Assembly (NCBI RefSeq): GCF_024713945.1
Contig: NW_027461514.1
Coordinates: forward strand, 434,001-498,000
DNA length: 64,000 nt
Origin: Dermatophagoides farinae
Taxonomy: Eukaryota; Arthropoda; Arachnida; Sarcoptiformes; Pyroglyphidae
Direction of reading: 5' to 3'
This document shows, piece after piece, positions 34,315-63,319 of the stretch. The position numbers were made by a program, and so were the translations under genes. Every line of letters begins with the position of its first letter. The first letter of the stretch is position 1. The notes beneath the pieces were generated by a model. That model did not search any database, was not told where the DNA came from, and worked only from the letters and a program-made list of their open reading frames with translations.

Positions 34315-35309
34315 TACATACGTTTATATAATGAAGGGCTGTCACTTAGTTCGCAATAATTTCCAATAAGTTGATAGCCAGTGGAACAGGTTTTTTCTGC
34401 TGCTCCTAAAATAGTGTAACAATTTTGATCATCTAACATAATGTCTGTTTTTTTGCATTGTTTGTTGGGCTGAGTCGTTTTTAAAAGTTCACAAACATGT
34501 TTGTTCAACCGGTATCCAGTAGGACAATTGAAAATAGGTTTTAGAAATTCGTCAGGGAAACAGTTTTTATTATGTCCTAATGAACAATAGACATCTGTCG
34601 GATAAACTTTGCGACTGTAACATTTTCCATTCTTCTCAATGGCATGTTCAGGACATCGAGACTCGCAAATTGGCTGAGCTTCTAATTCGACTTCACAAAC
34701 CCTTTGATTAACACCGATTTCAGCATCCGGGAGCGTATTATTATTATTATTATCATTAAAGCGGTGTCTTAAACATGTTTCAGCATGAACTGATGCCTCT
34801 ACCATTCCTGCGTCTTCTCTGGGTGTGCAATCCATTTCAACTGATTTCCAACATGATCCTCTGGCTTCAGTATATCCGAGTGGACATCCAGTGATTTTGT
34901 GATGTGATTCTGGAATGTATACAACGCATTGGTTGTTTTCAAGTTCTCCAGCTTTACAACGTTCCATTATGCCTTTTATTTTGGTTGATTGACACAGACC
35001 TCCAATATCACGAGTTCCCACAGGACAAGATGGTTCAGCTGGGATAGTTTCAATAGATTCACATTGAAAGTCTTTTAAAACACTGCCTTCGTCACAAGTA
35101 AGAATTCCTACAGTGGGCACGACGCAATGTTCGCCATGTAAAGTTCCTTTTGGACATCTTAAAAATGGTTTCAAAGCTTTACGAGGATCACAGGCACCTG
35201 GAACAGAAGACTCACAAACAATTGTATTGTCTAATGCCGGAATTGACGAATACACCTGTCCTGAAACTAAAGCGAGAGGAATTAAGATCGAACAAACTTT
35301 AATCACCAT
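34311..35309 (-). CDS. Secreted Cys-rich protein, oocyst-wall-protein (COWP)-like
   Basis: A 332-residue protein with a clear signal peptide (MVIKVCSILIPLALVSG, cut near residue 18-22) and 27 cysteines. It is built from modules of the form C-P-x-G-x(5-7)-C followed 10-14 residues later by the next CP. Examples are CPKGTLHGEHC, CPVGTRDIGGLC, CPLGYTEARGSC, CPTGYRLNKHVC and CSTGYQLIGNYC. That spacing, and PAEPSCPVG-like linkers, are the pattern of Cryptosporidium and coccidian oocyst wall proteins, which are disulfide-linked in the wall of the transmission stage. N- and C-terminal modules are internally duplicated (see findings). There are no membrane anchor and no obvious Tyr-rich region. Role as a cyst/oocyst wall component is inferred. 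General EGF-like or TIL-type Cys-rich folds are an alternative. Confidence 0.7.
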   Translation of the reverse strand: MVIKVCSILIPLALVSGQVYSSIPALDNTIVCESSVPGACDPRKALKPFLRCPKGTLHGEHCVVPTVGILTCDEGSVLKDFQCESIETIPAEPSCPVGTRDIGGLCQSTKIKGIMERCKAGELENNQCVVYIPESHHKITGCPLGYTEARGSCWKSVEMDCTPREDAGMVEASVHAETCLRHRFNDNNNNNTLPDAEIGVNQRVCEVELEAQPICESRCPEHAIEKNGKCYSRKVYPTDVYCSLGHNKNCFPDEFLKPIFNCPTGYRLNKHVCELLKTTQPNKQCKKTDIMLDDQNCYTILGAAEKTCSTGYQLIGNYCELSDSPSLYKRMY

Positions 35310-38300: not shown

Positions 38301-40882
38301 GCTTTTGACGTAAGAATTTCTACTTGTATGAGCGTATCCAAGTTTATTTTGTATACTGAAAGAATGTGCAACAGTTCTAAAAAAAATTGAAATTCGAGTT
38401 CGTCAAAAATGCTTGGAATATTAACAAATTTTAGAGTTTCTAAAATAAAAATGTCGAGTTTCCAATCGTATCTGACTATTTTTTCTATATCATTCGATAA
38501 AATACCAATTAGCCGTCTTAAAACTTTTAAATACACAGTACTAGATTTAATGAATCGTTTCAAAGAGTACGTTTTGTTACTAGAATATTCCAACAAATTT
38601 ACGAAATTTACTATACGTCCTACTATTGAGTACACAGTTAAAGAATAAGAATCTCGACTTAATCTAATCTTTTTTTCTTCAACGAGTTTCAAAGCCAGTT
38701 TAACCAGCAATGATTCGTCAAAAGTTTTTAAAGAAGAAACGTTTACTAATATGCGTTCGAAAATCGACAAATCACCAGAGGGCTTGATTAAGACTTCAAC
38801 CATTTCCAATATTTTTTTTTCCGAATATTTCGGCGACCTGACAATCTCAATTAGTACTTGAAGCGCCGCATCAATCAAATGTGCGTTGAACAATTCAAAG
38901 TTACTGACAATCATTAAAAAATAAAAATCTAATCTGTACATCAAAATGAATGTTTCATTTTCTGTAGTGTTAGCACTTATACAAGAACTAATTAATTCAA
39001 AGCAGGCTGTGTAGTAAAAACAACTAATGTAATGGTTGTTAAATTTCTTGTTAATTGTGTTTTGCAATCTTTCATATCCTAAGTCATTTTCTTCAATTCG
39101 ATTAGATAAAGTAATATTTTCAGTCGGTGTGATGAAAGGATCAATAGCCGTTGTTATGTATTCTAAACTAGCCTCTATCAGAATATTGAATAAAGGCGTA
39201 TTTTTTTTGATTGAATTGAACGCTTTTGACTCGTTAATATTGAACAGTAAGATTTTTACGGTTAAAATAATTGTTAAAATTAAATCCAGATCGTGCTTGG
39301 GTGTATCTATTGTTATCTCTCTAGAATGAGCATTAATTAGAGAAAATATGTGAAAACTAGATTCAATATGTAGAAGTGTAGTTATACAGAAATTTGAGAT
39401 TGCGTGGTTGAGCAAAAGACTGTAATTGTTTAACTGCAGTTTATATAACAATACTAGTAAATAATTATCAAACTGATTTTTAAGTTGTACAAGTAAAGCT
39501 TCTTCAGTTTTACTAATTGGTACTTGATTTCGGGGTAGTAGTTTGACAATGTGAGCTACGCTCTGCAGTAAAAATCGTTGTTCTGGCAAAGACATATATA
39601 CTAAACTGCTCAGGACGTCTTGTAAGGCATCAGTTATGAGTTTATTTTCTAAATTTGAAATGGCATCTACAGTTGCCAATAGTCTGGCAATGTTGCGTCC
39701 AAGCTCAACAAACGTCGTTGGTATTAAATAAATCATTCCTGCTACTAAAAGATGCAACTCAGTTGCTAAACTTTGATGGCTTGCTACAATCATGAGAAGA
39801 TTTTTCAAGTCTTGCATTGCTTTCTGGACCGAATCATTGCACTGTATCGGACTTATATTTTTTGTGTAAAAACTTTTCTCTTCTGGAGTATAATTAAACC
39901 ATAATTTCGCTGACTCATAAAAATATAAATAACCTTTCTGTACCTCGTCGTATTTTTCCTCAAGTATTTCTTTTATATAATCAAAAAGAAAGGTAAAAAA
40001 ATTCGGAACGTTAATGTATTTGATGTTATATTCGGCAATTTTTGAAAGTAATAACAAGTGAACGTCGTTGTAAATGTTAACCTTTTGGAAATTTTTATAT
40101 TCTAGCTCTGCTTGATACAGTGAAGGTATTTTCATATCATCTAAAAAAGTTTCTTCTGAATAGCTGAGTTTGTCGATCCATTCGTTGTAGATTATAAGTT
40201 CATTTGTTTTGCTATTGACCCAACCATTACCGACGTGAACATAATAATCGATTTGTTCCAACGTAGGAATAGTCAAAATGGCATAATACCAATAGTAAGG
40301 TATCGATTTTTCCAACGGGTTTCCTTCAAAATAAAGTTTTTTAAGTCTGATACCACGTAAAACAAATTCATGACAAAAATCGACAAACTCTGTAGGAGTT
40401 ACATCAATAAAATTGTTTGTAAGTGAGAGTTTTACCAAGGTTTCGGGTAAAGATGTGAAATTCAACTTTGTTATATTATTGGACGCTAAATCCAGAATTT
40501 TTAAAGGAACAATTGGATTAACCTCCGGAATAGCTGTCAACCTGTTCAACTTTAACGATAAGTTTATAAGACTGGGAAGTTGGATTTGATCTATAGTTAT
40601 AATAATATTATCTCCCAGAAAAAGATTTTGCAGCTTCACTAAAGGTGATTTGCTTGCGCATAAAATATTGTTTACATTGATAATTTGTTGCTCTCGAGCA
40701 TTGATCGTTTGAACCTCATTTATCGTTATGCTGTTGAACAAATCATAGGTTTCCGGTTGTAGTAGCATATCGAGTGAATGAAACTTCCGTTTGAACAAAC
40801 TCAGGTTTATAGTTTTTTTTGTACATGCTTCGATAAAAGAATTATCTTTGGCTAAATCTTGTAGTAAATTAACGTCATTCAT
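35386..40882 (-). CDS. 1812-residue LRR protein with helical solenoid and PH-like end (3 exons)
   Basis: Exons 40882-35913, 35883-35796 and 35766-35386 join into 1812 residues (4970+88+381 nt, an exact multiple of three). Residues ~80-215 are leucine-rich repeats, with words such as LQNLFLGDN, LINLSLKLNRL, LKILDLASNNI and LVKLSLTNN, capped by a longer C-terminal repeat with FEGNPL. About 250-1450 is a long all-helical, ARM/HEAT-like region. After 1480 come beta-rich segments, CIAVSKKSFVLFSLND and HDKSRVHLIFDQQQTALKI, like a PH fold, and a second set near the end. No catalytic motif is visible, so a cytosolic scaffold is likely. I know no named homologue. The ATG is at 40880-40882, divergent from the orphan gene. 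Confidence 0.75.
35767..35795 (-). other. Intron 2 of the LRR gene, 29 nt
   Basis: Begins GTAAGT and ends ATATTTTAG, on a codon boundary (GAC GAA to GAA CAA). Retention meets TAA after seven codons. It has the same length as intron 1. Confidence 0.85.
35884..35912 (-). other. Intron 1 of the LRR gene, 29 nt
   Basis: Begins GTAAGT and ends TTTTTATTAG on the minus strand. Retention gives AAG TAA at the junction. Splicing carries the frame into exon 2. Confidence 0.85.
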
Positions 40883-41109: not shown

Positions 41110-43621
41110 ATGGCCGTTGGAAAAAATAGCAAAAACAAACTACTAAGCTTGACAGTCAATGATGATTTGATTTACTCCATAAAGCGTACGTTGATCTATT
41201 TTTCTGAACATTAATTCTTATTTAGAAAACTATAGAAAAAGAATCCCCAATGACAAACCAAAATCTTCGGTGCAAATGAAAGAACAGACCCAGCAAACTA
41301 CTATTATGCAGACGGCTTCTAACTGTTCAAGTACAGATGTTGGATGCTATGAAAATAGCGCTGAAATTTTCTATTACGCTAACATGCTCGCCAACAAAAG
41401 CGAATTAAGCGTTAATTATTTTGCTGATAACATCGAAACGACGGAAAAAGAATACTACGGACTTAAATCAATAACCTCTTACTCGAGCCTTTTAAAAATT
41501 CCAACTACTGAATTACCCAAAACGCAGTTGATACTTAAAAAACTAGGGAGTTATTCCGTGACCATTTCTTCTCAAAAACGTAAAACATTTGTATTAAATG
41601 ACGTCATTTATGAATATAAACATTTGCTTGGAACGAGTTCAACATGCAGTTTCTTCAACTCAAAATTAAAGATAATTAACTCAAATTTAAAACCGAGAAT
41701 TACGAATGAAAATCGCAAAAATATTTATTTCATTTCTGTTATAAACCATCTTTACCATAAAGTGTGTTTATCTGTCACTAGAAAGTATTTTAATCACGTT
41801 AATTTGTACAAATTTTTATTTGCTAAATCAAATTACAAAGCCTTACTACTTAGATATTTTGAAAACGTGTTAAACGACGAGAAAATAGGTTTACAAATCA
41901 CAAAAATATTTGATCACTTAAACAGCGCTGATTTTGCAATTTTTGATGATTTTCTGGTTCTTAACGTTACATTTGTTTTGTCTGTAATAAGACTTGAACT
42001 ATTTGAACTTGTTGAGGACATGAATTGCTCCAATATTTCAATTGAAAGAATGAATTCTCTAGATTTAGCTGGAATTTTGGAAAAAATTAATGAATCTTGC
42101 AATTTTACGAGAATTGTTTTTGATTTCTTCTATTTTTTTTTAAGCGTTGAAAAGCTGAATAAAATTTATCAGAAATTTTTTTCTGACGTTTGCCAACTAA
42201 AAAATATAGTAGAATTCCTCTGCAAAACTAAGACACGGGTGACAAAAATAAAAAATAGAAACTTTACAAAGCTTGATTTTTACACAGGTGAAACAAAGCT
42301 TTCACTGCATAATGAACTTTTTGTCACTTTTCAGTTAAATTTGTTTGAGTTTCGAATATTACCAGATTCTACCGAAACCATTTTGAAACGCTGTGTCTTC
42401 GCAGATTTCAAAAAAAATAGAGTCATTACTTCTGTGTTTGAACAGTATAAAATCAACTATGCCGTATTCAAAATTAGAAATTACTCTGTTTTATTTTTGG
42501 TGATGCAGAGTTCCGAGATAGTAGATTTATTTGACTTCGGCCAGTTGTTGGACTTGTACAAAAACGAATTACAATTACGACACTATATCACATCAAAAAC
42601 GTTTAAAATACTTCAAAGCAGTGATTATCTTACGAAACTAGTACAGGTCAGTCAGTTTTGTAGCTATGTAGATTATTTTTTTTCTGTTGTGAATCATAAC
42701 TTGTCTGATAATCCTTTGCTAGAAGAACAAGCAAATAAGCATTGCTTGAGTTTGTTATCAGTCGTCACACGAGCATTTCAACAAAAGTTTGGTTTATCTT
42801 TTACTTCAGTCACAAGTATGAAGTTTTTTGTACTTGCAATTGAAAAAAGTTTAATATATATTAAACTTAAAAATTGTACTTCTTTTATTGAGCCTAATGA
42901 AGAAATTAAAGAAATTAAATTTATCGATCATGCTGAATTTCTTGTGCCGGATTCAGGTGCCAGGGGAAAAATTGTAGTGCCCTTCTACGCAAGGATTACA
43001 AATCATTATAATCTACAAATCGGAAAAATTAAAACAAAATGTTATCCAGAAAAGTTCAAAATGTTTGTAAACCGCGTCGATTTATTTTGGACTAACATAA
43101 AAATTCAGTTACTACAGTTTATCATTGTGCAAAGGATGTTAATTATAATTTTCAGTTTGTCAGATAGTATAAGTTACGAATACTTATTTTATCACGCTAG
43201 TGCTTGCTGGAAAAAGAGTTTGAATTTGCAGAGGAGAGTCAACGTGCCGTATAAATTCTTGCGTTTGTTTTCTCCTCTTATAAAGCGGATTTATGCGTTT
43301 TCAATTTATTTCCTTGAGCATTTAGTAGCGCTTGCGAAAACTCTCATGCTTTACACGTATAAAATCATTAAACAGCCTATTTCTCTTCTTATCATTATTC
43401 TTTATCTTATGAAGCTTAAAATATCTTCTTATGATTACTATGACATTGCTGCGAAAACTAATACACGGAAGCACCAGAAAAGTATCAATCAAACGGTGAA
43501 AACTTTTTATTTACAAAGAAAAAACGAATGGAATGCACTTCTGGTGAAACACCTAAAAACGTTACTTAAGGAGTCAAGAGAAGACCGATTTAAAATTCAA
43601 GATGACGAGTCATTTAATTGA
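41110..43621 (+). CDS. Orphan 823-residue protein (2 exons)
   Basis: The long frame has no good start of its own (GTG at 41270, ATG at 41276). A 40-nt intron joins it in frame to a 76-nt exon with ATG at 41110 (MAVGKNSKNKLLSLTVNDDL), giving 823 residues. The protein is Phe/Leu/Lys-rich and mostly helical. It has no motif I recognise. Hydrophobic stretches occur near the end (about residues 655-680 and 735-758, such as PISLLIIILYLMKL), which might be membrane helices, followed by a basic tail. It neighbours the LRR gene in a divergent pair 227 bp apart. Lineage-specific origin or very fast evolution are both possible. Confidence 0.6.
41186..41225 (+). other. Intron, 40 nt (orphan gene)
   Basis: Begins GTACGT and ends TCTTATTTAG. 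Retention meets TAA within the intron. Splicing gives the downstream frame an ATG and 25 upstream codons without a stop. Confidence 0.65.
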
Positions 43622-49483: not shown

Positions 49484-52400
49484 ATGTCAAATAATCAGTT
49501 CTTATTTTTGCAATTTCTGTCAAATTTTTTTGAAGTTAAGTCAAATGATTACACGAATGACTCAAACGCAGTTTTGACTAAAATATTTTTTGAATGGGCT
49601 CAGCAGTTTAAAAATTTTGGTTGGGCGCAAAACATTTCGAAGGCGGTTGAATTCTGCGTGGATCGCTGCCCGATCACCGCAGAAAATAAAGTTAGTTTTA
49701 TTTATTCGCAAACTAGTTTCATTTGCAACTACTTGCAGAGTTCCAAAGACGACAGCGAAGTCATTATTTTTTCGATCAAGGAAAGCGACCAAGACCGGTT
49801 TCTGGTATTGTTCATGCAAAAAGATATTCCCAATAATTTATGTTTTTTAGCGTTGTATGACGATAGCCGATTGGTTGAACCGTTCCAAGAACGCTACGAC
49901 AATAGCAAAGATTGTTATTGTATTTCGAATTTTACATTTTGGATTTCGAAAAATTCTGACGTTACTAAACCTATATTTTGGTTGTCATTAGCTTATCTTA
50001 GCACTCATCATGTAGCTGGCTCGTCACAGCTTTTGTATAACAGAATTTTGCCTCTATTCGCGACTCGCGTTGCAAACGACTGTTATAATAAATTACTTTG
50101 TAGAAGACCGCAAAGTCTGCTCGAAGTAAACCATGTTATCTGGTCAGCTATCACGTGCTTGCTTGTGTTTTGGTCTGTTTCGAAGCTAGATTTGGCTTTA
50201 ATAGACAAAAAAAAAAATGTTAATCTTGATACTACAGACTGGTCTCAAATAGTAACAGAGATATTTGTCTCATTGTTTCAAAGTTTACCCCAATTCGTTT
50301 CTGAGCAAAATCCTATTTTAAATGAGACAGATCAAAGTATTTATTTTGCGTACGAAGCATTTATAAATTGGTTAAATGGCTTTGCCATTAGTGTTGGAGA
50401 TCAAGTTTACGCATTACTTAAAAAAAAATACTACACATTACCTTATGCAATCACTGACATACATGATGAAAGTAACGATTCAATTGATGTCGCTGAGAAT
50501 GCATTTCCAATCAATTTTCCGCTTTTAACATCGCTTAATTACAATTCTTTTATCAAATCAATAATAGCGAACGACTCGCATCAGCTGAAACTGAAAGTCG
50601 ACACAATCACTGACAAAGTGTCTTTGTCCTATGCTTTGTTGAATATTAGATTTTTAGTTTATCAAAACATATGCAATAAAGATATCTTGATAAGTACTTA
50701 TATTGAAACGTTTTTTTCTGACAAAGTAGCTGTTTGTAAAATGATTGAAGATGACATAACAACAGAAAACGTCGAAGGTGTGTTTTCCACTTTGACGGCT
50801 ATTATGCGGTATTACATAAACAGCTCGATAAATTGTTTTAGAACAACTTTTGCTGCATCTGGAAACAGCATTTCAAGCCATTTTATTAGTCAGTTGTCAA
50901 AATTTGTGTGGGTATGTTTAGATTTATTTTTGTTGTTCAATAAATTAATGAGATCGGAGACCGCAGGCAAGGCAGTGCCAATTTGTTACGAGTTTCAGCA
51001 AACTATTGAAAAAGCTACTAAAACTGTGGACAAGTACACTATTAATTTCAGCGGAGTAACTAATTTGCTAAACAACCTGTTTGCTCAATCACCTTTTGCT
51101 TTGTTAACAATGAACGAATTTTTATCATACTGTAATTTGAATAAAGACAGCCAGAACAAACTTTTTGCATTTGAAGAATACGGCTTTCTTTTATCGGCTA
51201 CAGATGCTCATTATTTGAAAAATCTTAGCAAGTATTTTAACCTTGAATCTGCTGACTTCGTGAGTCAACTACTTAATCCAGAAAAAGATAAAACTACTGC
51301 TTTACAATTCAGCTCTAATTTAACTAACTGTAAAGTGTGCGATATACATGCGTTCCATAATGTATACTACGAGTTGAGAGAAATCACATTATTAACCAAA
51401 TTTGCATTAGCTGTAGCGAGAAACACACTGATGCATTTCCCGTCGAATTCTTTGTATTGGTTACCTAAAGGTTTTAAAAATTCTTCGGACAAACCGGTAT
51501 TTTCATACTACTATAGTGACAGTGCAGTATTGAAATCAATAGTTGCATGGAACTGCGTCGACAGTTCTACATTATTTGCTTTTATACAAACACATCAAAA
51601 CGATGGCGATTCTGTAAGCTCAGATACTGTTTCGAAAAATTCAAAAACATCGCAAACAAAAAATAAGAAAACTGCTGAAAATGCCGTAATTGCAAAAAAT
51701 ATTCAAAACGTTCTTCCGTCGTACAAACCATACTCTGGTGATCAGGGAACCAATACTAAACATATCGATACTAACAATCCAGAAACATCAAGTTATAAAA
51801 TAACCAAGTATTTTACAGATGGCGGGAAATTTTTTAAGGGTTTAGTAGATGTTTTCAGCACGAATTCCGACAAGGACTCGGTACAACTACTTTATAGTCC
51901 TGCCTCTATTGCAGCTTGTTATTACTACTTATATTCGCAAACGGATTTTTTGTTGACACACATAAGCCACATTATCGAGTCCCGGTATAAATCAATATTT
52001 GTCGATCCGCAAAACCAACCTTGTGACATCAGCATCAGTTCGTATTGCAAAGAACTTTTATCAAAGTTTGGATCTGAAGACAAAATCGTTGAAATAGATT
52101 TGTTGAATTTGAAATATTTACCCGTTATACCGACAAATACACCAATTTCGGATGTGGAAAGTTTGTTGAGTTTTGTTCATTACGAATATACCAGAATTTA
52201 TTCAGTTTTAATTTTTTTTAACGAGTACCCAAAACTAACAGCGTATTTTGGATTTTGGGATATACTCTACTCCTGCGTGTTTTGCGTTGGGCAAACGGAT
52301 GAATTATGGAGGTTAAGTTCTAGTTTATTGATAGACACTGTACATAATATGATCCCGCGTTTTAATTTACAAAGTGAAGACGAAAAAGACTTGCAATTTC

Positions 52401-55400
52401 TTAATTTGAAGAGTCTTCTCTTGAACGAAATATACTATAACTGTAGCAATTTCGTTGATACGATCTCGAACTTAATTATCAAATGTATTGGTTTGGATAA
52501 TAAGCAAAAAGATATTTCTCAGAATAGTAGCTTTGTCGCTTTGGCTAACATAAGTGAGTTTGTTTCGGATGTGCTTGTGTTGATGATGGACTTGGTGTAT
52601 GGCAAACAGCTCGTTTTGACAATTAACGTAATAGAAATCCACCAAAATCTAATGAACCTTTTTTACGTTTTCAAAGACTTCTTGTTGACACATGTTAACC
52701 AGTGGTTAACAGGCCTTGAGTTTGAACATTCTGACGTAGTAAAAACTTGCGAGGTAATTAGGTTCAATGTTAATTATGTGCTTTTAAATTATTATAAATA
52801 TCATCATGAACTAGACTCAGACAAACTCTCAGCTCATAAAAATAACTTGGAAGATCACATTCTTATTGGAACCGAATTTTTTTTCGGACCTCTTCGTGGC
52901 GCCGAATTATTTTGTATGATACAAAACCTTTATTTGTCGATATTTTTCCTGCTGAATGAAAATAAACTTTCTCAAATTAATGACAAAAATAACGCTAAGA
53001 AAAACAAACCAAGTACATCTACCGAGACTGATGAAATAAAACAAATAATTCCAGGATTTCATAATGCAAAACTTTACCATGTGCTTTTTGAATTAAATAA
53101 ATTCTGCTTGGATTTGCTTGACGAAAGTGATCTGGTTCGTTGTGCCATTTGCGAAAAAATTGTGTTGTACATTTGTAATCAGCAAAAGAATACAGAACTT
53201 AAACTTTCTGGTGAGCTTGTTTGGAAAAAATTCCAGTCAGATTCGCTAAGGCAAAATATTTTTTCACGGTCAGCTATAAACGGAAGTTACATTAGACTGA
53301 ACGATTCTGGTGTAGCTATAATAGACTATTTAGTCGGTTCTGTATCTTTTATGCGTGGCGAAGTGATCAACTTGGAAAACTATATTGATTTTTGTGATTC
53401 TTACAAACAAGTACTTCAGCATCTAAGTTACAGCTCGACTATAAATAATCTTTTAGCGTTGAAAACTGAACAAAACAGTTTTAATTGTTCGTATAAATTA
53501 CTTGGATTACAGAGTGAATATACACTTTACGAGTATTTCATTAACAATCGAGTTGTTATTAGTAGTGAAGCGTTAGATCAGTATTTAGTTTCGTTACATG
53601 ACTGTGAAAAAAAACTGTTATACGACGAAAAAAATGCCGTTAAAACCACTGCAAGTCTGAACACTAATATTACAAAAATGCGCTTTACTTCGTTCTTCAG
53701 TAAAAACCAAGTAAATGAAAAATTTTCAAGTAATCAAACACACCGATTTGTAAAAGAGGTTAATGTTAATCTTAAAACTTTAGTTCAAAGTATTCTATGC
53801 GCACGAGATAGATTAGAATCGTTATATACTAAAAAATACGCAGAGTTCAACTTATGGAAATGTAAACATTTCAAAAATTATTTGTTGTACGAGCATCCAG
53901 TCGGCGAAGATAACCCGTATATGGTTGTCAAGTTCGTTCGATTTTTGGGGATCAAGAAAGGCTACATAGAAAAGTTGTCTCAGGTGAATTTTAATGAAGC
54001 TGCCACCTTGGTAGACCATTTAGACAATATTAAAGAATTCATGTATATTGACGAAATTAAACAAGTTGACGTTTACGAGTTATTGCCATTCGGGACTTCT
54101 GTAAAACGCGTGTTAGTGTATTCTGAATGTATTAATGAAGGTTCTGAATATTCGTACTCGTTTGGGGACGTTGAACAGAGAAATGAAAATAACGAAACGT
54201 ACGTTTCCGGTCACACTCGAGCAAACTTTTCGAACCTCATGTTGCTAGCTTCTGCAAAATCTAAGGAACACGATTTTCCTCTTTTATTGTCGAGCATTCG
54301 AAGTATTAGTTCGAAAATTTCGAACGAGGCGTCAATTGTTTTCATTTTGGCAATAAAAGACATAATGTCGTGGGTCGGTTCGCATCGAAATCCCACTGAA
54401 ATTTATGTGCCAAACTTTTTGCTCAACGGATTACTACCTGCTGTGTTAATCGAATCCGTAAATTTTTGGCTCAGTATATCGCCTTTTCTTTTTTCGTTGA
54501 ATTTTTTCGAAAAACAGTTAATAAACAAGTGTATAGACCTGAACAATTTATCAACTTTTTCCATTGATGTGCTGACGCATTGCATTTATTCTTACAAACT
54601 TTCTCAAATTCTTTCTTGGTTCTTTCAGCCTTTTTCGCATATTAAATCTGAAAAGATCGATATTTTACTATTTCCACCTAAATTAAAGCCTTATTGTTGT
54701 AAATGGAAAAATTCTGAGGTGTTGCCTACACAACTTTGGTTTAATCAAAACCCAGTGCTGACACCAGAACTAGAAGTTTGGCAAGACAACATAGCACTTG
54801 TCCAGTCTACCTATGACAGCCAACAATTGTTTTTGGTTAATTCGCAAACGCTGTTGATTTTTGAAAACAGTTGGAATTCTTACCTCAAAGTTTTGTTAAA
54901 AATTGAAGAAATGTCAAATATCTTGCTTTTTGCGCGGCTTCCGGTTCCACTCGATGAATTTTCTCGTTTGCTCACTCCCAAATTTTGTGAAACTTTGAGT
55001 AGTTACTGTAACAACACCGACACCAAAGACTTTGAAATTTTTTCGTGCGCGTTCTGTCATTATTATTACTGTTTGTATTCTAATCTATATGATTCTGTGA
55101 ATAATTTTCTAAATACAGAGTTTCTTACAAAACCAAGCGAGATTGTTCAAGTTGATTTTCCCAGACTCAAACTCAAGTTTGTACTGAGAGATGGCCAGTT
55201 CTACTCAAGCGAGTATCAAGGGTACTATATACTATTTGGTAAGATTAATTACAACAATATTGGTAAGTGCTCAGCTCAAATCATAGAAAAGTATTCTCTT
55301 ACGCTTAAAGGGTTGAACTCGTCGCTTCTATTTATTTTTTCGTTTAGAAAATTCCACTCAATCGTCACAATAAACCAAAAATCGGAGTGTTCAGTTGTAA

Positions 55401-58400
55401 TTGAATCCAATTTGGACAACTTGAATAAAACGTTTGTTGATTCGCATTTTTTATACCACTTGCATCCAACAGATGCGTTTTTGTTGCCCAAAAATTCGAT
55501 ATCCGCTGCAATATTGTTTTTCTTGTATTTTGTTTTGAAACAATACAGGAAAGCATTCCATCTGTTCAAGCAGAGCTTAGTACAGGCGTTTTTAGAAAAA
55601 TCAGACGAATATCACGAAGCTCTTAGCAAATATATCAGAAACAATTCCTGGATGTTTGCAAAGTTATCTGGTATCGCTATTCCGTTAATGCTTGTGTTTT
55701 GGTACAAATGCAGAACGGTTGACAACAAGAGTGCGAGCAACTACTTGAGTGTCATTGATGTTGTAGATTTGTATAACAAGTATTTAATAATCCATTACAA
55801 ATTACCAAATTTGTATCAAATAGAACTAGAGGTAGAAATGTTCTTACTTGATCATTGTAACTCGCTCGGCGTGGTTAGCAAGTTTGAGTGGATCGGCATT
55901 CGTCTAAAGACATTACGTAAAAAGTTTACATCAATCGACAAAAAAATTGTTGCATACAGCGCACGATCCGAGTTCGAAAGCTTGGAACCGGGATTTTTAA
56001 ATAATGTTAGTTCGATTGCTATTAACAACAACATTAATACGTTGGCTAAGTACTTGTTGTCTGACGAGGCGGTTCCTGATAAATTAAACGGAGTAGACGG
56101 TTTGGCTTTTCTGTTCAAAAGGTTGTCGTCTGAATTGTCAGTAGACTCGAAAATTCACTCAGATACGGTTTTTTCGGGTTTATCTTTGTTTAAAAGTTTC
56201 ACGTTCATTTACCGGTTGCTGACGACCGGTGTCGAAGTCAAAATATTCCATCAAGACATTTCAACAGAGATTGGCTTGCTGTTATGCCACATGTTGTCCG
56301 GAAAAGACATAACCTTAATGAATCCACTCGTGAAAGTATTATATCATCTAGTGTACAATCCCGCAATCGCACTCGTACAGGCGCCTAAATATAAGCTGGA
56401 CGACCCAAAGACTGCTAAAAACAAGAAGTCGACAGCAATCCTGGGAAGCATAGGCATAAGCAAGATTGAAATATTGAATTCTATCAAGTGCAAGGCTTGG
56501 CTTACGGAGCTGTTCTACTTTATCAATAGCCTTTGCGTGGGCGACATTGAGAGCGTCAGAACTCCCAAACCGGAATTCTACTTGAAGAAAATAGTTCAAT
56601 GTGCAACTGAAAATTTGTTTTGCAATTCCAACGAAAAACTGTATGTCTTTACCAAAAAACAATACACGAACACCTGCTCGCTTCATGTCGAGCTAAATTC
56701 GTTTGTCAGAATGCTGACTCCTAAATACCAGAACGTTATAAATTACATTTCTGGTCACGCTACGTCGCCAGACTTTTTTATCACACCCCTGAAAAAATAT
56801 TTGAAACATTTCAGCGTCGTTAGAAACGTTATTTATGGCCCGAACAAACTAACTGTATTTAACGAGCCAAACAATGTTATAACAGATCGATTGAATGAAA
56901 CTTTTCCATATGAAATATCGCAAAATGTTGTTCTATATAAATCTTACTCCAGCTTGAAGCGTAGTTTAACCGAGTTAGAAAGTGATCTTTATTTCGTACT
57001 GAGAAACGAAAAAAAGCTACGAGATGCGCTTTTAAACACCGCCTACGAAACTATTTTTCAAAGTCTTTGCGTTGTCAAAGGCAAGCTGCTTCTTGATTCA
57101 CTAGATTTAGCTTTTCTAGTGAAAGAAATTATTAACCTACTTAATAGTAATAATTTTGTTCGTGATTTTACAGACATACTAAAGCTGAAGTCATGCGACG
57201 TGGAAACTGTTAAATATTTACTCATTCACCTTTGTTTATCTTATACACGTTTTTCTTTAGCGACTAAAACGCTGAATGAGGTTCAAAACGCCAAAACCCT
57301 GTTTAGCAGTATTAGCGTGGACTCACCCAAATTTGATATCGATTCAAAGTACGACCAGCTGTCCATACATGAACAACTCGAATTGAGTTTGAACGCTATA
57401 ATTGAAAATTTAGGTCATACGTTTGAAAATTCAATCGCAATAAAACTGGGTTTTAATCCGGCTAAAAAGAACAAATTCTCCATTTCGGAGCATTTAGAGA
57501 ATCTAGAAGTGTCTGATAAGTTCGATGTTAACATTCAAGTTGCGCTATTTGAGCTGGTTAATTCCTTGGTATTGCGACGTAATCAAGTGCAATATTGCAA
57601 TTCAATTCTACGTTCAATCGACTGCGGAGAACCGTACTGTAGACAAATCATGATGGGAGAAGGCAAAACCACTGTTATCATGCCTTTAGTTTCTCAATTA
57701 TTACTTGAAAAAAACATTCTCGCTGTATGCGTAACACCGAAAAACCTGGTCCATTTCACCCAACAAGCTTTGGAGTCTCGTATAGGCTTTGCGTTGGACC
57801 GTGGGGTTTTGGTTTTTAAATTCAGCAGGTCGTGCCAAATAACAAAAAGCCTCGTACAGCTGGTGAAGGATGCGTTCTCTCGAAACAAATTGTTGGTTAC
57901 TTCCGATCTTGATGTTAAATCTTTATTTTTGCGGTGTCTTTATGTCTACTTCCGTTTTAACGAGTCAGAGTACTTTAAAATAGATATCGACAGAAAAGCC
58001 AATTCTAAAATACAACTGGTGCGTGTAAAATTGCACAGTCTGAGCCATGGTTACATCAAAAAGAGTCTAAAAAGTTTGGGCGTTTCTATTGTCGAGATGT
58101 TCGAAAATTCAAAGGACAACGATAAAATCACACAGGTACAGTCCAAAAATACAAAAAAAAAAAGCCTTGGAATGGCCTTAATCAAACGCGCATTTAAAAG
58201 CAGTAGCCCAGTTAGTGCTAGCGACCTGCAGAATGAAAAAAATAAAATTGAAAAAAACACGCATACTAAGGAAGATGAGTTGGAAGAACTGTTTCTCATA
58301 ACCGAACTTCTCGAGTTTATGGAAAAAAACGTCGTTTTTGTGCTTGACGAAATCGATCAACTGATTCACCCAATGCGATCCACTCTGCGTTGGCCCATAG

Positions 58401-61400
58401 GACAGGTCGAGTATATTGGTAATGATATAATAGGAGTGAGCGAGACGGAAAAATGCAAACAGACTCTATCGCTGGAGTCCAGCGAAATACAAAAAAATAT
58501 GCAAGAACGACTTTATTTAGCGTATCACGAATGGTCTATCGCGTGGCACTGCTGCGAATTGTTGTACAGCAACGGTCGACCCGTTTATTGCAATTGTTTG
58601 CGCGACTTGCACATGACGGTTGAAAACTCGAAATTTCCAGAGATGTTAAATCAGAAACTTGCTGAGCTGTTGGAAAAAAAGTTGTGTATTCACAATCCGA
58701 ACCTGGTAATTTTGAAAATATCGACCTATTTTTCTGTCATAAAACCCATTATGGTATCGTGGCTGGCTTGGCTTTTCAAAACACTCGGTCTGTTTCAAAG
58801 TTACACGAGCGCTGCAAACGGTGAAGCGCATATTAAAAAGGAGTTCGAAAAAGCCATGTCTGATAAGACAAAAATAGATTCGTTCGCGCGTGAAGTTTGC
58901 AACATTCAAGAAGTCAGTGAGTATTCTGTCATTGGAACGCAGATTCGGCTCATTTTGTACGAAATGTACGATTGGGTGAACAGATACATTCCTTTTTTAC
59001 TGACAAAGACATACAGAGTGAATTTCGGCTTCCAACATACCAATAAAGTGGCGGAAAAGCTGTTGATGAGTTCCGTAAAAACGGTGGCTTTAACTAGTGC
59101 TGATGATTACTTAGCTATGACACGACAATACTTAGCCGTTCCATACCGTACAAAAGATACACCCACAGCGAACAGCGAGTTTGCCAATCAAAAAATTTTG
59201 ATCGCATACACGATAATTTGCTACTTTTTGAACGGGCTTTCTGAGCAACTGGTAGAGCTAGTTTTTAACGAGTTGAAAGCGTTTTTCAAGTCTGAAAAAA
59301 CCTTGTACTTGGAAAACTCAAGAGCAAATAAACTGTACTTAAGTTGGGCTCGCAGTGCCAACGCCGTCGTCAGTAATCAAACAGAGCTGTTTTACGACGC
59401 AAATAAAAAAATTTCTGACCGGAGCAACATTGTTTGGAACAAGATTCTACTTCCATTAGAACAAATTGACACTAGCAATCTAATAATCATGTCAGAGCTC
59501 GTTGAAACGTTTAAGTACAACCATCTTGCAATCAATTTCTTGCTTACTAAAATTTTCTTTCCAGTGTTTTTGAAGAAAAGTTCGAATGTGATAGCTGCTT
59601 ACGGACATCATTTGGCGTCGAAACTACTATGCAAAAACAAAATTAGTTTCAGCGGTACGCCCAGTAAACTTTTGCCCATTGAGTTTGACAATTGTTGCTT
59701 GGACAGGCGATGCGACTACCATGTCATGCTTACACTATGCGACCCCAAGGTCGCTAGGATTGTCTATATAGACTTGGAAAATCTGAACAAAGATTTATCT
59801 CAGTCTCATCTAATTGTGTTTAACGTGTTTATCAACGGATGTGATGTGCTGATTGATACTGGCGCATTAATGATTGACAAAAACAACTTCGAAGCCGCCA
59901 ACATCATTTTGAGCAACAATGGAATAACCAGCAAATGTCACGAAGTTTTATTCTTCGAAGAACAATCTGACGAAAAAACGCTGCTGGTCAAAAACACCTT
60001 GAATGGCAAAATATCAAAATTAATTTATAACGATGGATACTGCGACGAAAACAGGTTTGTTTATTTCGACCAAGCTCACTCATTCGGACAAGATATCAAA
60101 ATTCACCCCAAAGCTTGCGGTGCTGTAACGATTGGTAAAGACACTATGTTTCGAGATTTGGTACAAGGCTGCTGGAGATTGCGTAACCTTGCGAAAGGAC
60201 AAACCGTGGTTTTTTTGATTCCTACGTTTTTGAAAAAACAAATATCCGAAGTTGTGAAAGTACTTAAAGCACATTCCAACGAAATAGATGAAAATCTTTT
60301 AGCATTGTTGAATTGGTGCCTCGTTAAATCTTACGTCAATGAAAACTCGTACAAACTGATGAACCAACAACAGAACCTTCGAACTTTGCTACAATATATC
60401 CATATTAAGCACGCGCTTGATAACAAGAAATTTCTTAGTAAAAATAAACTCGACAAGAATCTTCAAAAGTTATTTGTAGAAGAAAATGAACAAACTAACG
60501 CTGAAGAGTTGTTAACGTATGCTAACAATGAACTTACTAAGCTCGATCAAAATTGTTTTCAGCAGGAGAGACAGTACATACAAGCATTGGTAGATTCTAT
60601 CGAACAGGCTCAACGCGAAAAATCTACAGCAGCGCTTAGCACTAATTCGAAAAGTAATGCTAAAAATAATTCCGCCACAAAATCTCTTTTGAGCGAAGTT
60701 TTAGAGCCCACAGATAAAAATGTAGATGTATCTACTGACTTGAGTTTAGATCTAAATAATGAGATAGAACTTGAAAACGCAGAAGAAATAGAGCTCCAAG
60801 ACGAAGTTGAGATCGAGCAAGTAGTAGTAACGGAAAGAGAAACGGTCGTAAAACCACACCAGACTACGTGGATTAAAATAAAGCCCAAACTGAAAAATTA
60901 TAATTTTTCGAACATAGTCAAAGAAGCTCAATGTTTAGTCGACATATTTGCTGATTCTAAAATGCAAGATTTGCTAAAACCTACTGGTACTTCAAAAAAT
61001 CAAAATAGCATATTTTACTCACCCATTGTTTCTTTTTCGTTGAATAGCCAAATTAGAACACCGCAAATCAATTATGTTTTGCGCTTGCAGACGCTAAACA
61101 GCCAAAACTGTTACAATATCAAAGATGCTAACAATAAGCAAGATTTGTTACTACTAGAACTTCTCAAACTTTTGTCAGAACACTCGTTCGTAAATTATAA
61201 ACTCGTCTTGAATTTGCTTGGGTTTAAAGAAACAGATATCTTGACGAATTTGATAGAGCTTGAAAGTCTAAGGAGCGAGTACGAAATTGAACCAATGAAA
61301 AAAAATGGAATAAGACACCGTTGCCATTTTGAAGATTTGTTTTATATATTGAACAAACCAAGATATGTTAACGACTTGTTTCCAGCATATAAGCTCATAG

Positions 61401-62110
61401 GTACTTCTAACGGCATTTATGAAATTTTAATTACCAATTATGAAGCAAATAATATTGTCAAATTCCTGCGTTTGTTTGGTCAGAAAAACTTGAGGAAAAA
61501 ATTCGGAGTAACAATTGGACTGTATCATACATATCGAAAGTACTACTACTGGGGCGTTACGACAATGGAGAAGAATACGTTGAAAATGCAAAATATATCG
61601 CTCAATCTTGAAAAGAATTTTTCTTTTATTCAGTTAATAAACAGTAAACTCGAGATATCTCCTATTAGTCTCTCTCCGTATGTTGACCTATTTTTGAAAA
61701 TCACAAACTATTGCTTATTAAGCAACTCAAATAGTTACAGTAGTAAAAATAAACAAAAGCAAGTTTCCATATTAGACTTATTATCAACTTTGCACTTTAA
61801 AGCTCATAGAACCACTATTGATATTGATAAAGTAGTTAAAAGTAAAATAACTGAATTTTCTTGCTCGCCCTATAATCTTTTACTTGACAAAACCAGCAAT
61901 GACGAGATATTAGTAAAACGTATTCGCATAATGCTGTGTCAATTAGGAATTTCTTGGAATCTTAATAGTAATGACATGTCTGAATTTTCAAAACGTTCAA
62001 AAGGTTGGTTGCTCTTTTATCTTTTAATTCTAAACACGCATCCCATGTATGAGCTGCAACATATATTGACAATATTGAACGAGATTCTCATTACAGAAAC
62101 AGAAGAATAA
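49484..62110 (+). CDS. Giant DUF3638/DUF3645-class protein with SecA/SF2-like ATPase motifs
   Basis: One unbroken gene of 4208 codons, a fifth of the window. The first ~2600 residues are helical and divergent. The core starts near 2715 with IMMGEGKTTVIMPLVSQLLL, a P-loop of SecA/SF2 style. VVFVLDEIDQLIHP follows at about 2950 as a Walker-B-like DEID. LAVPYRTKDTPTANSEF (about 3217) is the DUF3645 signature. FSGTPSKL lies near 3390, and DQAHSFGQDIKIHPKA with LVQGCWRLRNLAKGQTVVF (about 3530-3585) has the QxxxRxxRxxKGQ shape of helicase motif VI. These patterns match DUF3638/DUF3645 proteins of fungi, plants, oomycetes and ciliates. Their biochemical role is, to my knowledge, not established. The acidic Glu/Asp-rich linker at about 3720-3790 precedes a C-terminal helical end. 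The ATG at 49484 is the first in frame. Confidence 0.82.
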   Translation: MSNNQFLFLQFLSNFFEVKSNDYTNDSNAVLTKIFFEWAQQFKNFGWAQNISKAVEFCVDRCPITAENKVSFIYSQTSFICNYLQSSKDDSEVIIFSIKESDQDRFLVLFMQKDIPNNLCFLALYDDSRLVEPFQERYDNSKDCYCISNFTFWISKNSDVTKPIFWLSLAYLSTHHVAGSSQLLYNRILPLFATRVANDCYNKLLCRRPQSLLEVNHVIWSAITCLLVFWSVSKLDLALIDKKKNVNLDTTDWSQIVTEIFVSLFQSLPQFVSEQNPILNETDQSIYFAYEAFINWLNGFAISVGDQVYALLKKKYYTLPYAITDIHDESNDSIDVAENAFPINFPLLTSLNYNSFIKSIIANDSHQLKLKVDTITDKVSLSYALLNIRFLVYQNICNKDILISTYIETFFSDKVAVCKMIEDDITTENVEGVFSTLTAIMRYYINSSINCFRTTFAASGNSISSHFISQLSKFVWVCLDLFLLFNKLMRSETAGKAVPICYEFQQTIEKATKTVDKYTINFSGVTNLLNNLFAQSPFALLTMNEFLSYCNLNKDSQNKLFAFEEYGFLLSATDAHYLKNLSKYFNLESADFVSQLLNPEKDKTTALQFSSNLTNCKVCDIHAFHNVYYELREITLLTKFALAVARNTLMHFPSNSLYWLPKGFKNSSDKPVFSYYYSDSAVLKSIVAWNCVDSSTLFAFIQTHQNDGDSVSSDTVSKNSKTSQTKNKKTAENAVIAKNIQNVLPSYKPYSGDQGTNTKHIDTNNPETSSYKITKYFTDGGKFFKGLVDVFSTNSDKDSVQLLYSPASIAACYYYLYSQTDFLLTHISHIIESRYKSIFVDPQNQPCDISISSYCKELLSKFGSEDKIVEIDLLNLKYLPVIPTNTPISDVESLLSFVHYEYTRIYSVLIFFNEYPKLTAYFGFWDILYSCVFCVGQTDELWRLSSSLLIDTVHNMIPRFNLQSEDEKDLQFLNLKSLLLNEIYYNCSNFVDTISNLIIKCIGLDNKQKDISQNSSFVALANISEFVSDVLVLMMDLVYGKQLVLTINVIEIHQNLMNLFYVFKDFLLTHVNQWLTGLEFEHSDVVKTCEVIRFNVNYVLLNYYKYHHELDSDKLSAHKNNLEDHILIGTEFFFGPLRGAELFCMIQNLYLSIFFLLNENKLSQINDKNNAKKNKPSTSTETDEIKQIIPGFHNAKLYHVLFELNKFCLDLLDESDLVRCAICEKIVLYICNQQKNTELKLSGELVWKKFQSDSLRQNIFSRSAINGSYIRLNDSGVAIIDYLVGSVSFMRGEVINLENYIDFCDSYKQVLQHLSYSSTINNLLALKTEQNSFNCSYKLLGLQSEYTLYEYFINNRVVISSEALDQYLVSLHDCEKKLLYDEKNAVKTTASLNTNITKMRFTSFFSKNQVNEKFSSNQTHRFVKEVNVNLKTLVQSILCARDRLESLYTKKYAEFNLWKCKHFKNYLLYEHPVGEDNPYMVVKFVRFLGIKKGYIEKLSQVNFNEAATLVDHLDNIKEFMYIDEIKQVDVYELLPFGTSVKRVLVYSECINEGSEYSYSFGDVEQRNENNETYVSGHTRANFSNLMLLASAKSKEHDFPLLLSSIRSISSKISNEASIVFILAIKDIMSWVGSHRNPTEIYVPNFLLNGLLPAVLIESVNFWLSISPFLFSLNFFEKQLINKCIDLNNLSTFSIDVLTHCIYSYKLSQILSWFFQPFSHIKSEKIDILLFPPKLKPYCCKWKNSEVLPTQLWFNQNPVLTPELEVWQDNIALVQSTYDSQQLFLVNSQTLLIFENSWNSYLKVLLKIEEMSNILLFARLPVPLDEFSRLLTPKFCETLSSYCNNTDTKDFEIFSCAFCHYYYCLYSNLYDSVNNFLNTEFLTKPSEIVQVDFPRLKLKFVLRDGQFYSSEYQGYYILFGKINYNNIGKCSAQIIEKYSLTLKGLNSSLLFIFSFRKFHSIVTINQKSECSVVIESNLDNLNKTFVDSHFLYHLHPTDAFLLPKNSISAAILFFLYFVLKQYRKAFHLFKQSLVQAFLEKSDEYHEALSKYIRNNSWMFAKLSGIAIPLMLVFWYKCRTVDNKSASNYLSVIDVVDLYNKYLIIHYKLPNLYQIELEVEMFLLDHCNSLGVVSKFEWIGIRLKTLRKKFTSIDKKIVAYSARSEFESLEPGFLNNVSSIAINNNINTLAKYLLSDEAVPDKLNGVDGLAFLFKRLSSELSVDSKIHSDTVFSGLSLFKSFTFIYRLLTTGVEVKIFHQDISTEIGLLLCHMLSGKDITLMNPLVKVLYHLVYNPAIALVQAPKYKLDDPKTAKNKKSTAILGSIGISKIEILNSIKCKAWLTELFYFINSLCVGDIESVRTPKPEFYLKKIVQCATENLFCNSNEKLYVFTKKQYTNTCSLHVELNSFVRMLTPKYQNVINYISGHATSPDFFITPLKKYLKHFSVVRNVIYGPNKLTVFNEPNNVITDRLNETFPYEISQNVVLYKSYSSLKRSLTELESDLYFVLRNEKKLRDALLNTAYETIFQSLCVVKGKLLLDSLDLAFLVKEIINLLNSNNFVRDFTDILKLKSCDVETVKYLLIHLCLSYTRFSLATKTLNEVQNAKTLFSSISVDSPKFDIDSKYDQLSIHEQLELSLNAIIENLGHTFENSIAIKLGFNPAKKNKFSISEHLENLEVSDKFDVNIQVALFELVNSLVLRRNQVQYCNSILRSIDCGEPYCRQIMMGEGKTTVIMPLVSQLLLEKNILAVCVTPKNLVHFTQQALESRIGFALDRGVLVFKFSRSCQITKSLVQLVKDAFSRNKLLVTSDLDVKSLFLRCLYVYFRFNESEYFKIDIDRKANSKIQLVRVKLHSLSHGYIKKSLKSLGVSIVEMFENSKDNDKITQVQSKNTKKKSLGMALIKRAFKSSSPVSASDLQNEKNKIEKNTHTKEDELEELFLITELLEFMEKNVVFVLDEIDQLIHPMRSTLRWPIGQVEYIGNDIIGVSETEKCKQTLSLESSEIQKNMQERLYLAYHEWSIAWHCCELLYSNGRPVYCNCLRDLHMTVENSKFPEMLNQKLAELLEKKLCIHNPNLVILKISTYFSVIKPIMVSWLAWLFKTLGLFQSYTSAANGEAHIKKEFEKAMSDKTKIDSFAREVCNIQEVSEYSVIGTQIRLILYEMYDWVNRYIPFLLTKTYRVNFGFQHTNKVAEKLLMSSVKTVALTSADDYLAMTRQYLAVPYRTKDTPTANSEFANQKILIAYTIICYFLNGLSEQLVELVFNELKAFFKSEKTLYLENSRANKLYLSWARSANAVVSNQTELFYDANKKISDRSNIVWNKILLPLEQIDTSNLIIMSELVETFKYNHLAINFLLTKIFFPVFLKKSSNVIAAYGHHLASKLLCKNKISFSGTPSKLLPIEFDNCCLDRRCDYHVMLTLCDPKVARIVYIDLENLNKDLSQSHLIVFNVFINGCDVLIDTGALMIDKNNFEAANIILSNNGITSKCHEVLFFEEQSDEKTLLVKNTLNGKISKLIYNDGYCDENRFVYFDQAHSFGQDIKIHPKACGAVTIGKDTMFRDLVQGCWRLRNLAKGQTVVFLIPTFLKKQISEVVKVLKAHSNEIDENLLALLNWCLVKSYVNENSYKLMNQQQNLRTLLQYIHIKHALDNKKFLSKNKLDKNLQKLFVEENEQTNAEELLTYANNELTKLDQNCFQQERQYIQALVDSIEQAQREKSTAALSTNSKSNAKNNSATKSLLSEVLEPTDKNVDVSTDLSLDLNNEIELENAEEIELQDEVEIEQVVVTERETVVKPHQTTWIKIKPKLKNYNFSNIVKEAQCLVDIFADSKMQDLLKPTGTSKNQNSIFYSPIVSFSLNSQIRTPQINYVLRLQTLNSQNCYNIKDANNKQDLLLLELLKLLSEHSFVNYKLVLNLLGFKETDILTNLIELESLRSEYEIEPMKKNGIRHRCHFEDLFYILNKPRYVNDLFPAYKLIGTSNGIYEILITNYEANNIVKFLRLFGQKNLRKKFGVTIGLYHTYRKYYYWGVTTMEKNTLKMQNISLNLEKNFSFIQLINSKLEISPISLSPYVDLFLKITNYCLLSNSNSYSSKNKQKQVSILDLLSTLHFKAHRTTIDIDKVVKSKITEFSCSPYNLLLDKTSNDEILVKRIRIMLCQLGISWNLNSNDMSEFSKRSKGWLLFYLLILNTHPMYELQHILTILNEILITETEE

Positions 62111-62161: not shown

Positions 62162-63319
62162 TTATTTCTTTTTTATTGTCTTCTTTTTAGCATTTTTCAC
62201 AACAGCAGCTGACTTATCATTGAGTTGGGCACTTTTTTTATTTGTAGAAGATGTTGGCTTCGAGACGTTTTCAGCTATAGGTTTAAAAAAAAAGTCCAAC
62301 CGAACTTGAGTAGAATTTTTTTTAGCATTTTTAAATCGGTCAATTAAACTTTTGACACGTTGCTCCGAAAAAGATTTTTTATTCACTAAATAATCGATTA
62401 AGCCGTCTTCATTTAGAACTCCATCTTTGAAATTCATGTTGAAAAGTTCTTTTTCTGAGTAAACTTCAGTGTCTGTAAACTGTTTGTATATCTTTGCATA
62501 TAAATCTAAATCTAGATGGAGTTCTGGCTTTTCCTTGGCAATTTGTTCAATAGATCCGTGAGTCTGTATAAGTTTGTAAGCTGTTGCCGGTCCAACACTT
62601 GGAGGGTTAGCAATATAATCGCATCCACACAACATACAAAACTCAATGAATTGTTTCATGGTCAAATCCAGTTCATCTAATATTTTGTCAATTCTGTATT
62701 CAACACCTATTGGATTCGGTATGGAAAAATTTATTGAGCGAACTAATTTTGGAACGCTGTAGCACAGTGTGTCAGAATCTTCGGAAAAAACAACATCGAC
62801 CTTTTTTTTCTTGCATAAATTTGCACATTCAGCTTCAGCTTCAGTTTTCGCTTGAATATAAGGGACTCCCATAAAATTCAATAGAGTTTTTATATCTTCA
62901 ATATGGCTCTTTTGCACTTGAACCGTGCGTTTTACAAACTTTTCAATTTTCTGTTTATCCTCATCTGCTATAGCTTGTTGTAACTCGATATGCGCTTTGT
63001 TTTTAAGTTCAGAGCGATTTTTCAACTCGTCGTTTTTAAGTTCGGGCGGTGTGCCGTCAAACACGTAGATTGGTTTCAACCCTAACTCGTATAACTTAAC
63101 AGTTTTAGAAAGAATTCCTGAAATATGACTGGTCACGTTTCCTTCGTTGTCTGTTAGATTCGCATTTGTTTCGTTTAGTCTAACTGATACAAGCAAAGCA
63201 TAGAGAAATGTAGCAATATCTATTCCTATTTTCTGGCAATTGAATTGCTTGATGGGCACGTTTTTGACTGAATTAGACGCATTTGTATTTAAAAACTTAG
63301 ATAAATTTTTAATTCCCAT
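62162..63319 (-). CDS. FEN1: Flap endonuclease 1
   Basis: A 385-residue structure-specific nuclease that trims 5' flaps in Okazaki-fragment maturation and base-excision repair. MGIKNLSKFL is the FEN1 start. The acids are present in IGIDIATFLYA, VFDGTPPELK, AKTEAEAECANL, FSEDSDTLCYS and GCDYIANPPSVGPATAYKLI (helix-hairpin-helix). A PCNA-interacting box, QVRLDFFF, lies at about 339-346, followed by a Lys-rich tail. The active-site arrangement around the first acid (IDIATFLY rather than DASMSIYQF) is divergent but keeps the Asp. A TAA stop just upstream in frame fixes the ATG at 63317-63319. It is a paralogue of EXO1 in the same window. Confidence 0.95.
   Translation of the reverse strand: MGIKNLSKFLNTNASNSVKNVPIKQFNCQKIGIDIATFLYALLVSVRLNETNANLTDNEGNVTSHISGILSKTVKLYELGLKPIYVFDGTPPELKNDELKNRSELKNKAHIELQQAIADEDKQKIEKFVKRTVQVQKSHIEDIKTLLNFMGVPYIQAKTEAEAECANLCKKKKVDVVFSEDSDTLCYSVPKLVRSINFSIPNPIGVEYRIDKILDELDLTMKQFIEFCMLCGCDYIANPPSVGPATAYKLIQTHGSIEQIAKEKPELHLDLDLYAKIYKQFTDTEVYSEKELFNMNFKDGVLNEDGLIDYLVNKKSFSEQRVKSLIDRFKNAKKNSTQVRLDFFFKPIAENVSKPTSSTNKKSAQLNDKSAAVVKNAKKKTIKKK

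Follow-up and report, generated by a model that had tools for sequence, protein, structure and literature searches.

PriA, RecQ, Mfd, SecA, RecG and UvrB all belong to superfamily 2 (SF2), and in SecA the preprotein cross-linking domain is located between motifs II and III. Proteins that carry DUF3638 (PF12340) with DUF3645 (PF12359) are giant proteins of protists and fungi and are rarely named in the literature that we searched. Two novel DUF3638 genes of Tetrahymena thermophila, NG1 and NG2, have a mechanism called undefined (PMC12615304), a large microsporidian gene family bears DUF3638 in a figure legend (PMC5423893), and the excerpts available also hold a lineage-specific DUF3638 gene of Aspergillus oryzae (PMC6237848) and nine expanded DUF3638 genes of Hypomyces (PMC6627653). 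The DUF3638 passages in these excerpts assign no function, and the Pfam and InterPro accessions of both domains are absent from the literature searched. In the polymorphic-toxin literature, the passages seen (12 of 31) do not deal with this family.

We analysed a window of 64,000 nucleotides, the whole stretch of DNA considered here, in which one frame encodes a protein of 4208 residues. Judged from sequence comparison, this protein is probably (at roughly 85%) a giant SF2 (DExD/H-box) ATPase of the DUF3638/DUF3645 family, from which it has no known difference. Such a placement names catalytic residues and makes the question of function testable by point mutants. The gene and the parts of its product are as follows.

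49484..62110, + strand: whole gene, 4208 aa, intronless, ATG at 49484 and stop at 62110
49484..55078, + strand: N-terminal part, residues 1-1865, without detected relative; no Pfam match and outside the chlamydial full-length profile
55079..56035, + strand: region upstream of the core common to chlamydial relatives, residues 1866-2184, from chlamydial profiles
57530..60772, + strand: predicted ATPase core, co-linear with bacterial relatives, residues 2683-3763, bacteria-only profile E 1.1e-63
57536..57880, + strand: DUF3638 (PF12340) match in the putative first lobe, residues 2685-2799, E 5.5e-19, 68.8 bits, cut-off 31
59120..59206, + strand: DUF3645 (PF12359) match inside the putative insertion, residues 3213-3241, E 2.5e-7, 30.4 bits, cut-off 25
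60773..62110, + strand: C-terminal part, residues 3764-4208; the chlamydial full-length profile extends to 3852

The initial annotation had taken this frame for a real intronless gene of 4208 codons, and the frame limits, the chance probability and the codon usage agree with it. Seventeen codons upstream of the ATG lies an in-frame TAA, and the chance probability of a frame of this length is ~1e-136 at the base composition of the window. Its codon usage correlates at 0.95 with that of nine other open reading frames in the same window, whereas its own two alternative frames reach 0.59 and 0.56 and the antisense strand 0.62. The ~92% coding density that went with this claim differs from our count, in which open reading frames of at least 150 aa occupy 86% of the window. 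The giant gene stands alone: at E 0.001 it is the only DUF3638 match that the genome (62.4 Mb, 22 contigs) yields.

Both Pfam models indeed score over their cut-offs, with PF12359 lying C-terminal of PF12340, which bears out the family signature proposed at the outset. The full Pfam list at a threshold of E 1 comprised three families, the third one being far under its cut-off, and the NCBIfam models gave no match to the protein. The two Pfam matches together account for ~144 of the roughly 1080 residues of the core; they end ahead of motif II and take in none of motifs III, V and VI.

Bacteria possess this core as well. A pattern search of genome contigs returned nine loci, three of which are true relatives, from Legionellaceae (L003), Parachlamydiales (L006) and Chlamydiia (L010), and all three genomes have DUF3638 matches over the cut-off. 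We read 40 additional bacterial relatives, mostly as whole frames, with some ended by contig ends. Among the surveyed groups, which we name after the records of their loci and general taxonomy, PF12340 exceeded its cut-off in 94 of 232 Chlamydiota genomes (110 at E 0.001; 16 chlamydial genomes had DUF3638 matches only under the cut-off) and in 55 of 143 Legionellales genomes (56 at E 0.001). The sampled Gammaproteobacteria gave 5 of 369 (7 counting weaker matches), in a set that overlaps with the Legionellales by at least one shared matching genome, G359. None of 299 sampled Bacillota genomes scored over the cut-off and two scored under it; these under-cut-off matches are a PriA-like protein, by sequence reading, and an Mfd/RecG-like protein that was also found by a RecG query. 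Fourteen control genomes had zero DUF3638 matches. A single genome held up to 11 scored DUF3638 matches, a lower bound that is partly drawn from short contigs, and many bacterial frames are listed at 2500-5000 aa, others being cut by contig ends. Thus an orphan eukaryotic family appears tied to host-microbe biology by a core common in Chlamydiota and Legionellales.

A profile built from bacteria only recovered the window protein in the pieces 2683-2819 and 2924-3763; the best of its controls, 20 shuffles and the reversed protein, reached 0.23. The chlamydial full-length profile aligned in the co-linear pieces 1866-2184, 2662-2816, 2922-2974 and 3164-3852, of which 2922-2974 taken alone has an i-E of 0.41, the best of ten shuffles being 0.098. 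The first of these pieces bears on the idea that the ~2600-residue N-terminal part is a lineage-specific extension. Residues 1866-2184 match the chlamydial full-length profile (domain i-E 7.8e-8), and a profile of the chlamydial N-termini finds them too (E 2.8e-7, against 0.45 for the best shuffle). Part of the N-terminal region is therefore shared beyond the lineage, and the idea holds at most for residues 1-1865, for which bacterial flank and full-length profiles detected no relatives. The Legionellales and combined N-terminal profiles gave no match to the N-terminal flank of the window protein, nor did the chlamydial, Legionellales and combined C-terminal profiles, each used alone, to its C-terminal flank.

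In a tree of 42 rows, the window protein sits on a very long, unplaced branch, from which the direction of transfer between eukaryotes and bacteria is not readable. Two diverged DUF3638 giants of Legionellales, L100 and L101, with 4614 and 4738 aa and DUF3638 matches at E 9.9e-9 and 2.3e-10, share one separate long branch. Similarity and pattern scans of viral contigs found no relatives apart from one pattern match, L115. This candidate was rejected as a viral relative, since it is a 28-codon frame and the rest of its 13.5-kb locus scores 0.24 or worse with the core profile; on its sequence, the pattern match is best read as chance. Searches of plasmids and phages gave nothing at E 1, and the PADLOC defence-system models gave 0 matches for the window protein and 3 weak single-member matches among the 42 members.

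For the catalytic core, we aligned 42 cores, the bacterial ones at 14-21% identity to the window protein. A larger alignment was made by adding 155 shorter loci, a set in which many genes are represented a second time; of the 199 proteins aligned, 154 were kept after rows that were >90% identical or had >40% gaps were removed. The motifs lie as follows.

57584..57586, + strand: Q-motif glutamine Q2701, 154/154
57653..57670, + strand: motif I / Walker A, MGEGKT 2724-2729; G2727 and K2728 154/154, E2726 4/42
57728..57751, + strand: motif Ia region 2749-2756; P2752 37/42
57896..57931, + strand: motif Ib region 2805-2816; L2816 37/42
58346..58357, + strand: motif II / Walker B (DExD/H box), DEID 2955-2958; D2955 and E2956 154/154
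59645..59662, + strand: motif III, SFSGTP 3388-3393; G3391 146/154, T3392 151/154; couples with motif II
59852..59863, + strand: IDTG 3457-3460, putative second-lobe strand; D3458 151/152 with letters
60062..60097, + strand: motif V, YFDQAHSFGQDI 3527-3538; G3535 143/148 and D3537 138/148 with letters
60164..60202, + strand: motif VI, QGCWRLRNLAKGQ 3561-3573, with R3565 and R3567; both arginines 146/146 with letters

The Q-motif glutamine, a Walker A GK(S/T) and a DExD/H box, then motifs III, V and VI with its arginines, were thus found in SF2 order, and these motifs are nearly invariant across the 154 members, which comprise one eukaryote and many bacteria. The motif stretches named by the initial annotation are all present, with MGEGK starting at 2724, DEID at 2955 and the helicase-motif-VI-like stretch at 3561. 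Eight columns are invariant in the 42 cores (Q2701, G2727, K2728, D2955, E2956, Q3561, R3565 and R3567), and they correspond to the SF2 Q-motif glutamine, the Walker A and B motifs and motif VI. In all 42 members, the Walker A lysine is followed by S or T, and Q3561 of motif VI is kept in 145 of the 146 proteins with letters there, the other having H. At position 2958, the fourth letter of the DExD/H box, 151 of the 154 proteins have D (88) or H (63) and 3 have another letter; among the 42 members, 24 have D, 17 have H and 1 has Q.

It has to be considered whether the protein might be a catalytically dead scaffold that merely carries P-loop-like letters. The giant size and the long flanks without recognisable domains would suit such a role. 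All eight invariant catalytic-motif residues are nevertheless kept by the window protein despite the 14-21% identity, and we regard a dead scaffold as very improbable. The SF2-like motor core proposed at the start is supported by these invariant motifs together with coevolution and profile-profile matches.

The spacing of the motifs sets the family apart from most SF2 proteins. It was compared with that of nine E. coli SF2 proteins, whose motifs were located by simple patterns. Between motifs II and III lies the following region.

58358..59644, + strand: putative inserted region between motifs II and III, residues 2959-3387, from the II-III spacing

The II-III spacing is 436 in the window protein and 260-354 in the 41 bacterial members, compared with 26-55 in eight comparators (PriA, RecG, Mfd, UvrB, RecQ, RhlB, RhlE and HsdR) and 182 in SecA, the only one of the nine with a large gap there; in PriA, RecG and Mfd it is 26-35, against 260-436 in the DUF3638 family. 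With 227 residues in the window protein and 125-153 in the bacteria, the I-II spacing exceeds the 93-109 of eight comparators; UvrB has 296. The usual SF2 spacing of I-II and II-III is therefore not matched by the family, but we did not count it as defining because UvrB and SecA, which are true SF2 proteins, carry insertions as well. Downstream, the III-V spacing (144 in the window protein, 119-161 in the 41 bacteria) compares with 114-127 in the comparators and 297 in HsdR, and the V-VI spacing (30 and 28-31, respectively) with 28-33 in six SF2 comparators, including 29 in RecG and Mfd, and 63 in SecA.

Coevolution was computed on the 154 sequences, a small set (Neff 108, 379 columns), and blocks chosen after the top pairs had been seen were ranked among 36 tested pairs against 5000 random block pairs. 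The pair 2957-3390, which joins motif II to motif III, ranked 8th. The strand order of RecA supplies the expectation for the blocks. Strands that are neighbours in this order, II-III, Ia-II and I-III, had fractions of 0.0024, 0.013 and 0.042 (ranks 1, 4 and 6 of 36), and the non-neighbours I-Ia, I-II and Ia-III had 0.11, 0.21 and 0.78. One unpredicted pair, motif I with IDxG, came second (fraction 0.0046) and may reflect an inter-lobe contact. Taken together, the coevolution signal places the motif-III strand, 436 residues past the DExD box, in lobe 1, which would make the DUF3645 region an insertion between motifs II and III. We infer two RecA-like lobes, of which lobe 1 fits the coevolution pattern.

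Structure prediction gave poor models, with a mean pLDDT of 35 for AlphaFold on the core of the window protein (four sequences) and 59.5 for a lobe-1 fragment of the bacterial relative L010 (five rows). With the latter, none of the 378 Foldseek matches reached E 0.001, and the 50 of them that were listed included no helicase that we recognised as fitting. A phmmer search of the PDB with the window protein found no sequence relative. By profile, the one PDB match, at E 0.034, is a sulfotransferase.

Similarity to known SF2 proteins is strongest for PriA. In a Pfam scan of the 42 members, 13 touch ResIII (best 2.7e-4) and 4 touch DEAD (best 8.9e-4); these matches are weak, and the window protein itself matches neither family. 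We also scored a background set of 80 proteins, 69 from E. coli K-12 and 11 from the window, ten of which we count as SF2. The six best matches were PriA (41.8), RecQ (36.6), Mfd (35.3), SecA (28.5), RecG (28.1) and UvrB (25.5), and the first proteins outside SF2 come directly after them: UvrD, an SF1 helicase, at 25.4 and a nuclease without relation to the family at 25.0. The matches ranked 4th to 6th are thus near background. The remaining four of the ten SF2 proteins ranked 10th, 18th and beyond 25th.

Profile-profile comparison used family profiles of 12-31 members each. For the whole core, the values were 8.8e-5 for PriA, 0.0069 for RecG, 0.011 for Mfd, 0.023 for SecA and 0.5 for Rho, with 0.094-0.78 for reversed profiles. 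This comparison is weaker than that with lobe 1 alone, in which PriA reached P 2.3e-6, RecG 7e-4, Mfd 0.005 and Rho 0.18, with reversed profiles at 0.34-0.73; the PriA alignment covers 109 columns of lobe 1, beginning at the Q motif and ending near Ib. Lobe 2 alone gave no significant match to the five families. The accessory domains of PriA, RecG and Mfd have no Pfam model among those listed for the window protein.

These comparisons also bear on SecA, of which the initial annotation had suspected the core to be a distant member. A SecA-type polypeptide translocase or unfoldase, in which the II-III insertion would be the counterpart of the preprotein cross-linking domain and clamp unfolded protein, would account for the large II-III gap that sets the family and SecA apart from the eight other SF2 proteins. 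It would also fit the best local matches to the SecA profile, which pair III with III and V with V in lobe 2 and fall on motif II in lobe 1. The lobe-1 match is nevertheless short and weak, covering only 12 columns of motif II at P 0.0067 (reversed 0.34), and the lobe-2 match is short as well (P 0.021; reversed 0.07, and reversed against RecG 0.02). The insertion shows no resemblance to SecA (P 0.66), and the V-VI spacing of the family is of ordinary SF2 length, unlike the 63 residues of SecA. SecA Pfam domains are absent from the full list of the window protein at E 1 and from the matches listed for the 42 members (25 of 65 families). Nor does the combination of GEGKT with DE(I/V)D, once read as the SecA pairing, characterise the family, since only 4 of 42 members have the Glu of GEGKT, namely the window protein and three found by a pattern that required Glu, and the DEVD-type Asp alternates with His. 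Lobe 1 is nearer to PriA and RecG than to SecA. Membership in SecA is not supported, and we consider a SecA-type enzyme unlikely.

What the family shares with SecA comprises the SF2 motifs, a DEVD-like box in part of the members, a GxD motif V and the large II-III insertion; its insertion is dissimilar, its V-VI spacing is ordinary and GEGK is not conserved. On these alignments, the residual likeness is one of topology, in the long stretch that separates motif II from motif III, to which come short local matches around motifs II, III and V; those of lobe 2 do not surpass some of the reversed controls. The family may work like SecA without being SecA. One may also conceive of a further class of ATP-driven translocases or unfoldases for polypeptides, akin to SecA but with DUF3645 as its own substrate clamp between motifs II and III, built into giant proteins that eukaryotes and intracellular bacteria share; we hold this to be unlikely.

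For the SF2 ATPase that we prefer, a working scheme can be proposed. Two RecA-like lobes would bind ATP between them, lobe 1 with K2728 and lobe 2 with R3565/R3567, while D2955-E2956 would hold the magnesium and activate the water. Hydrolysis would close and open the lobes. Attached to lobe 1 next to the cleft, the DUF3645 insertion might grip or gate the substrate, and the long flanks might scaffold or choose it. Nucleic acid is the likeliest substrate, at somewhat better than even odds in our view, and a polypeptide would come next, as a tentative second choice. We favour a nucleic-acid translocase that acts in host-microbe or virus conflict. Chlamydiota and Legionellales live inside amoebae and other cells, and a conflict is suggested because family copies multiply in these two bacterial groups; the bacterial distribution, together with the DUF3638 occurrences in the literature, may point to a conflict or host-microbe role. 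We are much less sure of the setting itself, which might be the conflict or interplay of protists or fungi with their viruses and intracellular bacteria.

Another activity comes from automatic annotation, in which many fungal DUF3638/DUF3645 proteins are labelled ubiquitinyl hydrolase 1. A deubiquitinating enzyme is suggested by this label only. No catalytic cysteine is conserved within the core, where the best Cys column is occupied in 17 of 42 members and the best His column in 32 of 42; a diverged protease might still lie in residues 1-1865, outside this alignment. No protease model was found in the window protein or in seven full-length or nearly full-length bacterial relatives. We rate a deubiquitinase as very improbable.

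Several other genes of the window may be recorded. Positions 240-6404 encode a large HECT ubiquitin ligase (HECT domain E 4e-94), 2054 aa long when counted from its first ATG; as the frame continues without a stop to the edge of the window, the gene may begin outside it. A secreted-looking cysteine-rich protein of 332 aa with repeated CPxG-type units, at 34311-35309 (-), is without a Pfam match at E 0.001; it is reminiscent of apicomplexan oocyst-wall proteins. A 1657-aa protein at 35909-40882 has a sub-cutoff leucine-rich repeat as its only Pfam match, and a 781-aa protein at 41276-43621 has no Pfam match at E 0.001. Two proteins look FEN1/EXO1-type nuclease-like by sequence reading, one at 17027-18301 (-) and the other at 62162-63319 (-), just downstream of the giant gene.
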